Shown in pieces: positions 34,391 to 37,732 of a stretch of 64,000 bases of DNA. A program made the translations under genes and the position numbers. The stretch's first letter is position 1, and the number at the start of each line of letters is the position of its first letter. The stretch covers positions 317,501 through 381,500 of the forward strand of contig WQBJ01000002.1 in assembly GCA_013032095.1 (NCBI GenBank), given 5' to 3'. The notes beneath the pieces were generated by a model that was given only the letters and a program-made list of their open reading frames with translations, did not search any database and was not told where the DNA came from. The DNA comes from Ruegeria atlantica. GTDB taxonomy: Bacteria > Pseudomonadota > Alphaproteobacteria > Rhodobacterales > Rhodobacteraceae.

Positions 34391-35059
34391 TTACAGATCC
34401 TTGATCTTGTCTGCCCGTAGTGGGCAGGCGAGGTAGACGCCGAACTCTTTTCCAATATTAGCACTGACCCGTGCATGAACCGCGCCCTGACGGTCTTGGA
34501 ATCGTTGGCTGTCTTCGACCGGGAAAATTCCCTCATGCCAGACGCCGGGGTGGATATAGAGGCCGCGTGAGCCATCGCACCAGAACGCCACCACTTTGTC
34601 CGGTGTCAGATTGTCTCCGGGCAATGCGGCAGGAACGATGAAAGGTTTGTTGTCCAGAGGCCAGAACATCTGCCCGCCATCCGGGTGGTAGTTCATGTGC
34701 CAAAGCAGAACCTGATCCCTGGCTGCGGTTTGACTGTCTTTCTGCGCTGTCTGTGGATCAGCGGACCAGCCGAGGACGTAGTGGCCCTTGACTGCCTCGT
34801 TCTCGCCATACAGCACGTCGCCCTGCCAATCGCATTTGAAGGTGCCCTCGACCCAGCCACCTTCGTCGCCAGTGCCTTCGTCGATGGGGCGCCAGCCTTG
34901 CTGCGGCCAGCGCACGATCTCGATCTTAAAGCTCTCAGGATCATCGACCAGACAGCCATAGCCTTTGACCGACTCGTCTGTGGCTCGAACCAGAGGCACT
35001 TCATGCCAAGGTAGCGAGGGTTTCGAACTGGCCTCAAAGATATACTCGGGCGCGTTCAT
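34391..35059 (-). CDS. ureidoglycolate lyase (AllA)-like cupin-fold protein in the tmp-like operon
   Basis: The 222-residue protein looks like the ureidoglycolate lyase/hydrolase family: GYGCLVDDPESFKIEIVRW at the start, LLWHMNYHPDGGQMFWPLD in the middle, and WCDGSRGLYIHPGVWHEGIFPVE, where the H-x-W-H stretch fits the AllA active-site loop. No allantoin genes are nearby. Its ATG overlaps the stop of the tmpB-like gene (ATGA), so it is coupled to that gene. A role in TMAEP or glycine betaine metabolism, for instance on a hydroxylated or amino-aldehyde intermediate, is only a guess. A 5' extension to 35338 overlaps the HD gene and is rejected. Confidence 0.78.
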   Translation of the reverse strand: MNAPEYIFEASSKPSLPWHEVPLVRATDESVKGYGCLVDDPESFKIEIVRWPQQGWRPIDEGTGDEGGWVEGTFKCDWQGDVLYGENEAVKGHYVLGWSADPQTAQKDSQTAARDQVLLWHMNYHPDGGQMFWPLDNKPFIVPAALPGDNLTPDKVVAFWCDGSRGLYIHPGVWHEGIFPVEDSQRFQDRQGAVHARVSANIGKEFGVYLACPLRADKIKDL

Positions 35060-35646
35060 GGTGTGCCCAAGTGTTTGTCGACCATGCGTTGTACCATCGG
35101 CGCGAAATGGGCGAAATCCGGCGTTTCCATATCCGCGCGTTTGCCTGCCTCGTCCAGATAGCGCACCTGAATGATCTCTTTGAGGTTCGGGTTGGCTTCG
35201 AATTCCGCAACTTCCTCGGTGCTCATCGGCCCGCCTTGAAGTTCCAGCGTATGTACCGAAGCGGTGGACAGGCGGTTGAAATACTCGGGCTTGGTGGCGC
35301 AGAGATACCGTTTGGCCGCGACGTGGTAGCGGCAGCAATCGGTGATAACCGAGGGGAAGAACTGCTCCAGCACTTCGGCACCCGCATCCTCGTGATGACG
35401 GTCTTCGGTATCATCTGGGTGGTACGTGCCGAACTCGGATGTGAAATGCCCGATATCGTGCAACAGGGCGCCGACGATGATTTCCTCGGGCTGACCGTTC
35501 TGCTCGGCAATTGTAGCGCCTTGCAGCATGTGTTCGGCCATGGTGACAGGTTCGCCCAGGTATTCCTCACCACCGCGGCGCTCGAAGATATCGCCGATGA
35601 AGGCCACGATATTGTCCCGGTTCAGGGTTGTGAAATCGGGTTTCAT
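35056..35646 (-). CDS. tmpB: HD-domain mixed-valent diiron oxygenase, TmpB/PhnZ-like
   Basis: The 196-residue protein is an HD-domain protein of the PhnZ type. Residues that align with the PhnZ set (Y24, E27, H34, H58, D59, H80, H104, D161) are Y29, E32, H39, H63, D64, H85, H108 and D165, with a [12 protein letters not shown] loop carrying the Tyr-x2-Glu substrate gate. PhnZ-type enzymes cleave the C-P bond of a 2-hydroxylated aminophosphonate using iron and oxygen. Next to a TmpA-like oxygenase, TmpB is the best match: it would split hydroxylated TMAEP to glycine betaine and phosphate. The ATG overlaps the tmpA stop and its stop overlaps the next ATG. Confidence 0.84.
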
Positions 35647-36779
35647 TCCGCCGCCTCCGGCTGTGCCATCTCCATCGCGGCCAGCGTAGACAGCAAACCG
35701 TCCTTATCTGCGTAGCAGCCCTGCAACCAGCGTGAACCTGCACCGGAATAGCCCAGACGCGCATGCAAAATGCGGGTGTTGTCGACGATAAAGCTCTCGC
35801 CCGATTCCAACTTGAAGGACACGCCCATGGCCGGATCATCGATGATGTCGCCCAACTGCCGGTAGGCGGCGTAGTAGGCCTCCATCTGGTCGAAGGGCAC
35901 ATCAACGAAGGGTGCGGACGAACGGTTGTTGAATCGAATGCCGATCAGTTCTCCGTCCGGCGACAGTTCGATCATCGGGCGGCGCGAGCGCAGGCAGACA
36001 CCGTCCGAGCCTTTGTATTCGAAACGCGCGGGGTAGCCTGCCAACAGAGCAAACCCATCCGGGTTCTGTTCGCGCAGCTTTTCGGCGGCGCGGAAGCCGT
36101 CGACCACAATGGAGTCGCCACCCTCGGCACTGTTTTCGAGACAGTACAGAATTTGCAGCGTCGGAACTGGATCGCGATAGGGGTTGTCGGTATGCGCCTG
36201 CAAACCAAGGCCGGTATAGGCGAGGTTGGTCGGATTCACCTCGGTCCGCACCTCGAAATAGGGGCCATAATTGGTTTCGCGCACATAACCGAACAGGTCG
36301 GCAACTTTTAGCAAAGATTCTGGCTCGGTCGGGCCGCCAGTCAGTTTGGCAAAGCCGAACTCGGCGACGGCAGCCAGCCAGCTACGTTTGGTGGTCTGGT
36401 TGGTGTGAACCTCGGTCCAATCCGAGCTGGGCGCGTCGATGCCGCGTTCCCAAGTGGTGATGCCGGGTGCGATTCGGCCGGCTTGTAGCGTCTGGTCGCG
36501 GTCATAGACGTGATCGGCCAGCCAAACGGCAGGGAAGGTGACCGTCTTGCTCTCAGGCTGGAACGTGACGCTCAGATCGCCATTCACAACTTCAGCGGCG
36601 CTAACTGAAACATTTGCGGGGATGTCCCCGATGGTGATCAGTCGCTGCCCATTGCCCGGGGCGCGGGTCTCGGGGTCCAGCGCGTTGTCGCGCAGCCAGA
36701 TGGCGTGGAAGCGAGCCTTGGCGCCGGTGTCGAATTCAACGGTTACAATCGATGTATCATGGGTGGCGGTGCGCAGCAT
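35643..36779 (-). CDS. tmpA: Fe(II)/2-oxoglutarate oxygenase, TmpA/gamma-butyrobetaine hydroxylase-like
   Basis: The 378-residue protein has the gamma-butyrobetaine hydroxylase layout: an N-terminal domain ([20 protein letters not shown]) without the Cys zinc site of mammalian enzymes, then a TauD-type double-stranded beta helix. Iron ligands are H196-x-D198 (LQAHTDNPY) and H339 ([10 protein letters not shown]), with R341 or a nearby Arg for 2-oxoglutarate. With a PhnZ-like partner coupled downstream, TMAEP hydroxylation (TmpA) is more likely than carnitine synthesis. It is divergent from a LysR gene, 86 nt away, with a palindrome between. Confidence 0.84.
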
Positions 36780-36825
36780 GGGGGTCTCCTGTTCGGCGCG
36801 GGCTTTGGTTGAGCAGATACGCGCC

Positions 36826-36842
36826 TTGTGGCATTACCACAA
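36826..36842. promoter_or_regulatory. LysR-type operator between tmpA-like and lysR genes
   Basis: TTGTGG-CATTA-CCACAA is a perfect 17-bp inverted repeat of the T-N11-A kind bound by LysR proteins. It sits 46 nt from the tmpA-like start and 35 nt from the lysR Met codon, so it can serve both promoters. Confidence 0.7.
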
Positions 36843-36877
36843 TTAATCCTTATTTCGGCTGAGGCTTGGAAAATCTT

Positions 36878-37732
36878 ATGGCTAAGAAAAAGATCGGATT
36901 GCCACCGCTGGACTGGTTACGTGTGTTCGAGGCTGCCGGGCGACTGGGTGGGTTCTCGGCGGCAGCACGCGAGTTTGGGTTGACGCAGGCGGCGGTCAGC
37001 CAGCGGATTGGAAACCTTGAGGCGTGGCTAGGCCGGACACTTTTCGTGCGTGAGGCGCGAGGGGTGTCACTGACGGTTGAAGGCGAAAGCTATCTGCCTC
37101 TGGTGCAAGACAGCCTGCAAGCGCTGGAGCGTAATACCGAGGATCTGTTCGGAAAGTCGCCTCGAGAGCTGCGGGTGGCGGGGCTGTCTTCGAACATCCA
37201 TGCTCTTGTTGTCCCAGCCTTGGCTCGATTTCAGGAGGTGCGACCCAAAGTGCGGGTGATGACAGATTCCGTGGCGCGCCGATCCTCGCTAGATGAAGAG
37301 CGGACCTGGTTACAAATCCGCTATGGCCGCGGGGCCTGGCCCGGGCGTGATGCAGCCCTTATAGCGCGTGAGGTGCTGGTGCCGATGGCAGCGCCCAGCG
37401 TGGACTGGGGAGCGCCTTTGATTGACCTGCGCGGAGAGCGGCCGGCGTGGCGGGATTGGGCGCGCAAAACGGATTACGGTGAACTGCCTCCCTCACAGAT
37501 CAGTTTCGATTCTATGGAACATGCCATTTCTGCTGCCCGGCAGGGGATGGGGGTGGTTCTGGGGTCGGTGCCATTGGCAAATGCCGATTTGCAGGTGGGA
37601 CGTCTGCGCAAGCTGGACTTGCCGGAATTGCAGACCAAGGATGGTTATTGGCTGACTTGGCCCGAGGAACGGGCGAAATCGAAGAAGCAACGTGCTCTGA
37701 TCACCGATTTTCTGCAGGCATTGCAGGGTTGA
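36878..37732 (+). CDS. LysR family regulator of the tmp-like operon
   Basis: The protein starts at the ATG at 36878 (an upstream start at 36866 would add 4 residues) and has about 284 residues. The winged helix covers residues 5-65 (LDWLRVFEAAGRLGGFSAAAREFGLTQAAVSQRIGNLEAWLG), followed by a periplasmic-binding-like effector domain ending at DFLQALQG. Its GcvA-like start and divergence from tmpA suggest it senses TMAEP or a product. A LysR palindrome lies in its own promoter. Confidence 0.87.
   Translation: MAKKKIGLPPLDWLRVFEAAGRLGGFSAAAREFGLTQAAVSQRIGNLEAWLGRTLFVREARGVSLTVEGESYLPLVQDSLQALERNTEDLFGKSPRELRVAGLSSNIHALVVPALARFQEVRPKVRVMTDSVARRSSLDEERTWLQIRYGRGAWPGRDAALIAREVLVPMAAPSVDWGAPLIDLRGERPAWRDWARKTDYGELPPSQISFDSMEHAISAARQGMGVVLGSVPLANADLQVGRLRKLDLPELQTKDGYWLTWPEERAKSKKQRALITDFLQALQG

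Follow-up and report, generated by a model that had tools for sequence, protein, structure and literature searches.

The window, i.e., the whole stretch of 64,000 nucleotides of Ruegeria atlantica that was analysed, contains a locus that, judging from sequence, can be assigned with high confidence to the degradation of trimethylaminoethylphosphonate (TMAEP) by the two iron oxygenases TmpA and TmpB. Behind tmpB lies a third coupled gene, here called C3, which encodes a protein with the fold of the ureidoglycolate lyase AllA and which is found mostly together with tmpB. The explanation as a whole, i.e., a TMAEP operon under LysR control in which C3 acts as a partner linked to the HD-domain oxygenase, is given a probability of roughly 0.72. 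C3 is quite probably a real member of phosphonate catabolism. The association of tmpB and C3 is likely new, as no mention of a third gene after tmpB was found in the open-licence literature, a scope outside which the primary TmpAB paper falls.

The TMAEP operon and its two oxygenases

The window (contig C112) belongs to a genome of 6.14 Mb that is 99.99% complete. Three genes on the minus strand, tmpA, tmpB and C3, span positions 36779 to 34391, with a divergent lysR gene. A first-pass annotation had described tmpA and tmpB with a third coupled gene and a LysR regulator, and the genes, their order and their coordinates all agree with that description. The ATGA overlap by which it coupled the oxygenase gene to the HD gene is present at 35646-35643, and the same type of overlap joins tmpB to C3 at 35059-35056. 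The features are as follows.

35643..36779, minus strand: tmpA, 378 amino acids (aa); predicted TMAEP dioxygenase, GBBH-like and dependent on Fe and 2-oxoglutarate (basis: NF049936, identity to 6npb, H196/D198/H339)
35056..35646, minus strand: tmpB, 196 aa; predicted HD-domain mixed-valent diiron oxygenase for (R)-1-hydroxy-TMAEP (OH-TMAEP) (basis: NF049941, identity to 6npa, active-site residues)
34391..35059, minus strand: C3, the third gene, 222 aa; predicted AllA-fold cupin (basis: PF04115, AlphaFold/Foldseek, linkage to tmpB)
36878..37732, plus strand: lysR, 284 aa; divergent LysR-type regulator, GcvA-like below cut-off (basis: PF00126/PF03466)
36833..36847, no strand: ATTA-N7-TAAT dyad of the T-N11-A type; candidate LysR box in the 98-bp spacer between tmpA and lysR

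The ATG start of lysR is at 36878, whereas the list of open reading frames (ORFs) begins the gene at a TTG at 36866. The nearest named loci by sequence are from Ruegeria, for example L062 (LysR 93%, TmpB 97%).

TmpA passes its own equivalog model NF049936 with 586.9 bits (cut-off 400) and narrowly misses the gamma-butyrobetaine dioxygenase model (413.8 against 414.75). Its closest solved structure is 6npb from Leisingera, with 73% identity over 366 aa, while human GBBH is a far weaker match (168 bits). The HxD...H signature noted earlier for this GBBH-like oxygenase was located: by motif position, the Fe(II) facial triad consists of H196 and D198 in the HxD motif and the distal H339. TmpB passes the equivalog model NF049941 (363.1 bits, cut-off 300) and fails the neighbouring models for Phn-HD (202.6, cut-off 214.6) and HMP dioxygenase (146.5, cut-off 300). 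Leisingera 6npa is its closest solved structure (86% identity over 193 aa), PhnZ being far weaker (109 bits). The YxxE gate is formed by Y29/E32 and the diiron residues are H39, H63, D64, H85, H108 and D165. With Y30/E33 in Leisingera TmpB and Y24/E27 in PhnZ, the gate indeed lies at a near-constant offset, as had been proposed; these residues and the ligand roles are taken from the accessible part of one source (PMC8177086). The model scores rule out chance for tmpA and tmpB. Together with the identity to the crystallised Leisingera enzymes, they support the TMAEP assignment of the first-pass annotation well.

In this route, TmpA would hydroxylate TMAEP at C1 to (R)-OH-TMAEP using Fe(II), 2-oxoglutarate and O2, after which TmpB, with its mixed-valent diiron site and O2, would cleave the C-P bond to yield phosphate and glycine betaine. 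Both steps are transferred to the window because of the high identity to the Leisingera enzymes, for which they have been demonstrated. The (R)-hydroxylated intermediate and the two products are described in excerpts of PMC10574752 and PMC8177086, and the excerpt of PMC10590968 presents two iron oxygenases as the sole described route for TMAEP. The chemistry of TmpA and TmpB is already known, and the window adds one more genome. Leisingera caerulea has the same enzymes, order and residues (6npb, 6npa). Its tmpAB is called a two-gene operon in the available passages of PMC10574752/PMC8177086, whereas the window has a third coupled gene. All ten Leisingera-named loci that were reached through C3 have the arrangement lysR-tmpA-tmpB-C3; these loci were selected for C3 and L. 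caerulea itself lies outside the comparison.

In L213 (3803-5484) and L211 (3876-5557), a protein with 39-40% identity to the TmpA of the window is paired with Phn-HD within a phnA-phnY cluster. The protein from L213, with 39% identity, reaches 473.8 bits and still exceeds the cut-off of the TmpA equivalog model. Therefore, this model is broad and may over-call the substrate. This breadth, and a gamma-butyrobetaine score just one bit below its cut-off, speak for a TmpA and TmpB that work mainly on another substrate, such as gamma-butyrobetaine, 2-aminoethylphosphonate (2-AEP) or another N-methylated phosphonate. Nevertheless, this is very improbable, given the 73% and 86% identity to the characterised pair, the conserved active-site motifs and a TmpB score far above that of the other HD models.

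Association of C3 with HD-domain oxygenases

C3 loci were collected by a scan with one genome per species, which gave 140 encoding stretches, and the best 80 were kept; these loci are thus selected for C3, and as genes were called with a codon score of our own, neighbour boundaries are approximate. In 66 of the 80 loci, tmpB is immediately upstream of C3; the stop of tmpB and the start of C3 share 4 bp in 64 of these loci and 1 bp in the other two. A tmpA sequence is also present in 63 of the tmpB-C3 loci, although some of these copies are broken or truncated at a contig end, and L125 has a remnant only. One of the 14 loci without adjacent tmpB (L129) begins at a contig end. Approached from the other side, the 30 tmpB loci that scored best in the family search include 8 in which C3 adjoins tmpB.

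The neighbours of unlinked C3 copies vary. The order purL-C3-small gene-grx4 is found away from tmpAB in seven loci (L132, L137, L140, L141, L044, L046 and L048; purL and grx4 models were checked in L132). In L098, L099 and L102, C3 follows an FAD/GcvT protein related to sarcosine oxidase and trimethylamine N-oxide demethylase (the L098 copy was scanned and is below all cut-offs), and L098 additionally has a distantly GbdR-like regulator (124.9 bits, cut-off 480). Three genomes of one genus have C3 beside a gene of the same cluster, which is a choline-sulfatase by model in the one that was scanned. Other copies are located beside lysS or an ilvE-like gene, the latter named by eye. A single neighbour as the partner of unlinked C3 was therefore rejected, and co-occurrence was assessed at the level of genomes.

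A family sample of 394 genomes from 393 genera was used. It contains tmpB in 53 genomes (51 over cut-off, plus G133 with 299 bits and G328 with 285 bits and stops) and C3 above 150 bits in 21, among which the copies of G036 and G100 have stops and that of G087 is cut by a contig end. tmpB is present in 19 of the 21 C3 genomes compared to 53 of 394 overall (Fisher p 2e-16, kinship ignored, as in the further Fisher tests of this sample). In ten of these 19 genomes both genes are adjacent and in nine C3 is elsewhere. For the non-adjacent copies, 9 of 11 genomes have tmpB (p 6e-8). Here, G087 was counted as not adjacent, because 1.9 kb of its contig extends beyond tmpB without C3. Leaving out the three damaged or cut rows, the figure is 16 of 18 (p 2e-13), and without G087 and G036 the non-adjacent copies still give 7 of 9 (p 3e-6). 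As a control, the C-P lyase gene phnJ shows no link to C3: 203 of the 394 genomes have it, as do 10 of the 21 with C3 (p 0.82). In addition, the genomes of 13 of the 14 loci without adjacent tmpB were searched (all except L131), and in nine of them both tmpA and tmpB exceed their cut-offs at another place; G398 has a TmpA above its cut-off with an HD protein of only 207 bits. These counts are not independent of the family sample, as G397/G270 and G400/G165 share coordinates. In a class sample of 367 genomes (C3 at E<=1e-30, HD match to the TmpB model at E<=1e-40), an HD oxygenase is present in 21 of 23 C3 genomes compared to 80 of 367 overall (p 2e-13, genome size uncontrolled). Four lower-scoring HD proteins were scanned: that of L213 passes the Phn-HD model, those of L216 and G573 are just under it, and that of L224 is just under the Phn-HD cut-off and well under the TmpB cut-off.

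In four genomes (L125, L128, L134 and L135) the tmpB-C3 pair is intact and a search of the whole genome gave no tmpA above the cut-off, L125 retaining a tmpA remnant with stops. All four are metagenome-assembled genomes, three of them named Amylibacter, and the absence could be partly due to assembly, but DNA upstream of tmpB is present. The gate and metal residues of their TmpB are intact and L134 retains the divergent LysR gene. Between L128 and L134, the ratio of nonsynonymous to synonymous differences (pN/pS) is 0.11 for tmpB and 0.12 for C3 at a synonymous divergence (dS) >1, and over the pairs tried it is 0.07-0.20 for C3 and 0.02-0.29 for tmpB. C3 is under purifying selection at near-saturated synonymous divergence. 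The retention of C3 with an intact tmpB after loss of tmpA points to C3 serving the TmpB side.

C3 also occurs beyond the TMAEP setting. In the 1.6-Mb genome G573, a homologue with 56% identity starts 7 bp behind phnW in a stretch of 31% GC (L209, 4547-8282) that comprises a 174-aa gene of unknown function, a divergent Phn-HD-like gene, phnW, C3 and a phosphodiesterase-like gene. phnY and a phnA-type gene are near C3; the latter, whose alignment begins at position 92 of the model, scores 361.8 bits (cut-off 407.55). A scan of viral contigs with the C3 of G573 as query gave no match. In L122, C3 precedes an aepXVW-type transporter, in which PhnS2 (535.7 bits) and PhnU2 (783 bits) exceed their cut-offs and which includes an ATPase of the ATP-binding cassette (ABC) type.

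The C3 protein and its possible role

C3 passes no NCBIfam model. Its match to PF04115 (ureidoglycolate lyase) has 46.6 bits and covers residues 122-187 only. The eight NCBIfam AllA models listed give 25-45 bits against cut-offs of 160-315, i.e., 120-290 bits short, the best score being 45.1 (cut-off 230) and the model with the lowest cut-off (160) reaching 39.6. An AlphaFold model built from 38 homologues (pLDDT 88.5, pTM 0.88) was compared using Foldseek. The top five matches are all AllA (E 9e-10 to 3e-7, 12-17% identity), with TM-scores of 0.65-0.71 on the length of the AllA target, but root-mean-square deviations of 4.6-10.6 A. The next matches are the sulfoglycolysis cupin DUF4867.

AllA (PF04115; 2bdr, 1xsq), which is Ni-dependent according to the accessible part of PMC3793230, has the fold and the HP-G-Q, WH and DR-G motifs in common with C3. 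Alignment of 38 C3 proteins with ten AllA-type proteins, i.e., the genome's own and nine that were unchecked against the AllA models, shows H125, P126, G128, Q130, W174, H175 and D189 of C3 to be common to both. C3 is longer, with 222 aa against ~165. The Glu-Arg before HP in all ten AllA-type rows is replaced in C3 by Asn (38/38) and Tyr (37/38), and Glu follows WH in 38/38 C3 proteins. The invariant set of C3 comprises H121, N123, H125, Q130, W174, H175 and E176. Judging by how the cupin motifs are spaced and by the ligands published for DUF4867, N123, H125, Q130 and H175 are the predicted metal holders, and C3 is probably a metal-binding cupin.

The fold and the PF04115 match would fit an ordinary ureidoglycolate lyase that is in the operon by chance. 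This is most improbable: every AllA cut-off listed is missed by a wide margin over an alignment of one third of the protein, the Glu-Arg pair of AllA is replaced, and C3 co-occurs with tmpB. C3 is beside tmpAB and not beside purine or allantoin genes, while the genome carries a separate AllA-type gene on contig C262 (245.8 bits, cut-off 260, the ORF having been called too short), within a locus that looks by eye like one for purine degradation.

The other relative, SftX/SqvB (DUF4867; 9gyy, 9gyz), is an AllA-like metal cupin of sulfoglycolysis, like C3 in this respect. In the available text of PMC11968277, these proteins recur in an organosulfonate pathway whose key steps already have enzymes, which parallels the position of C3. 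The likeness is weak, however (Foldseek E ~1e-3, 8% identity, TM 0.38-0.39). SftX/SqvB use two Glu and two His as metal ligands (PMC11968277, same text), compared to a putative Asn-His-Gln-His set in C3, and their substrate class is a sulfosugar, whereas the setting of C3 is phosphonate.

Most C3 settings share an HD oxygenase, with or without a hydroxylase beside it, and C3 is probably a dedicated partner that goes with the phosphonate oxygenases of the HD-domain type and not with the hydroxylase. It might then act at the alpha-hydroxyphosphonate step, most likely by making available to TmpB a hydroxyphosphonate that the enzyme cannot use, i.e., the wrong enantiomer or another form. This role is proposed because of the shared HD oxygenase, of which known relatives cleave alpha-hydroxyphosphonates, because AllA is a metal (Ni) enzyme acting on an alpha-hydroxy acid (PMC3793230, in part), and because of a racemase precedent. 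PbfF, an NAD-dependent 2-amino-1-hydroxyethylphosphonate racemase found by gene context, converts the unusable into the usable enantiomer. This racemase for (S)-2-amino-1-hydroxyethylphosphonate, reported in 2025, illustrates that alphaproteobacteria recruit accessory enzymes for the wrong enantiomer. PbfF is unrelated to C3, belonging to the pfam02826 family, and the enzyme for which it works is the lyase PbfA instead of an HD oxygenase (for PbfF throughout, excerpts of PMC12366243). An action of C3 on hydroxyphosphonates is a tentative proposal. Doubtful, too, is the broader idea that C3 founds a new enzyme family in phosphonate catabolism, in which metal-dependent AllA-fold cupins convert alpha-hydroxyphosphonates to a form that HD-domain oxygenases can cleave.

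Several observations weigh against a dedicated partnership of C3 with the HD oxygenase. The known TmpA-TmpB route has no missing reaction, and C3 is optional, 34 of the 53 tmpB genomes of the family sample being without it. Conversely, C3 occurs without tmpA or tmpB in G399, G400 and G401 of the 13 genomes searched, without a TmpB-grade match in G165 and G314 of the family sample and without an HD match in G580 and G638 of the class sample. In the latter sample, the 23 genomes with C3 represent 16 genera and are thus not independent, and just 7 of the 21 HD matches pass the TmpB cut-off (G469 misses it at 289). Some C3 copies have stops (G036, G100 and a second copy in G089). Many unlinked copies are located by the housekeeping genes purL/grx4, lysS or ilvE-like, which is uninformative on substrate. 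Over the pairs tried, tmpB pN/pS is highest in those with L135 (0.27-0.29), and if tmpA was lost after the lineages parted, the argument for the TmpB side would be weakened.

Two other roles were considered. Instead of acting on a phosphonate itself, C3 could be a factor that helps the HD-domain diiron oxygenase to mature, protects it or reactivates it, for instance a metal-binding cupin handling iron or a damaged cofactor. C3 tracks HD oxygenases of apparently different substrates, does not strictly follow the hydroxylase and remains with tmpB after the loss of tmpA, all of which would suit such a factor. This role is nonetheless unlikely, as most tmpB genomes (34/53) do without C3 and the invariant residues resemble a catalytic pocket, although the latter is not decisive. 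Alternatively, C3 could act after the C-P cleavage, on glycine betaine itself or on what its demethylation yields (betaine, dimethylglycine, formaldehyde adducts), as suggested by the copies behind the FAD/GcvT protein, the GbdR-like regulator of L098 and the choline-sulfatase-type neighbour in one genus. The C3 gene of G573 is part of a 2-AEP cluster (phnW, phnY, phnA-type) that would not be expected to involve betaine, and a betaine-side role is accordingly judged rather improbable.

Regulation, transport and meaning of the locus

The TMAEP operon is probably under the control of the divergent LysR protein. This protein matches PF00126 and PF03466 and scores 173 bits on the GcvA model (cut-off 288), and 56 of the 66 tmpB-C3 loci have a divergent homologue in front of tmpA. 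The ATTA-N7-TAAT dyad is present as a single exact copy in the window, with 0.12 expected, and is exact in 9 of 15 aligned tmpA/lysR spacers. It is missing from the three Leisingera rows and from L066, L076 and L090 among these spacers. Going by its sequence, it is a possible site of the LysR protein.

No phosphonate transporter is adjacent to the locus, as had been noted before. aepX/phnCDE-type transporters were searched for elsewhere in the genome. On contig C2, phnD is over cut-off (TIGR03431, 324.7 bits, cut-off 261.1); the ORFs around it look by eye like an ABC ATPase and permeases, and phnJ is ~6 kb away. The PhnS2/AepX-like binding protein on C198 remains below cut-off (229-233 bits against 392.75), as do two weaker matches elsewhere. 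PF12974 matches at four places in the genome, three of them over cut-off.

Other genes can take the position behind tmpB. An enolase-superfamily gene of ~410 aa is found there in five tmpAB loci without C3, overlapping tmpB by 4 bp in L007 and L031 and separated by a gap in L002, L003 and L150. The L007 copy is nearest to 3t4w and 3rcy, which are labelled as mandelate racemase-like only. This gene was rejected as a simple swap for C3, as G402 carries both. On a plasmid of Labrenzia sp. THAF187b, a protein of 281 aa annotated as alkaline-phosphatase family (L180, 8585-9430) overlaps the tmpB stop and could release TMAEP from an ester. In the window itself, positions 33360-34283 on the minus strand encode a protein of 307 aa that has, by eye, a twin-arginine-like leader and an imperfect tandem repeat of 22 residues (around residues 45-88); it has no match in the Pfam or NCBIfam models. 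Of the 80 C3 loci, 17 have a homologue of it behind C3.

As to the meaning of the locus, marine bacteria are known to use tmpAB to regain phosphate and betaine from a phosphonate that resembles choline. In Alphaproteobacteria, C3 behaves as a so far unlisted component of phosphonate degradation by oxygenases, and it may extend the TMAEP route. If C3 acts on hydroxyphosphonates, such compounds would be a real food in the environment. If it indeed founds a new family, the lineages with tmpB-C3 and no tmpA, as well as the cluster of phnW-C3 and Phn-HD, could use environmental hydroxyphosphonates without a hydroxylase of their own. Moreover, C3 parallels the unexplained AllA-like cupin of the sulfosugar pathways, and solving one of them could help to explain both.

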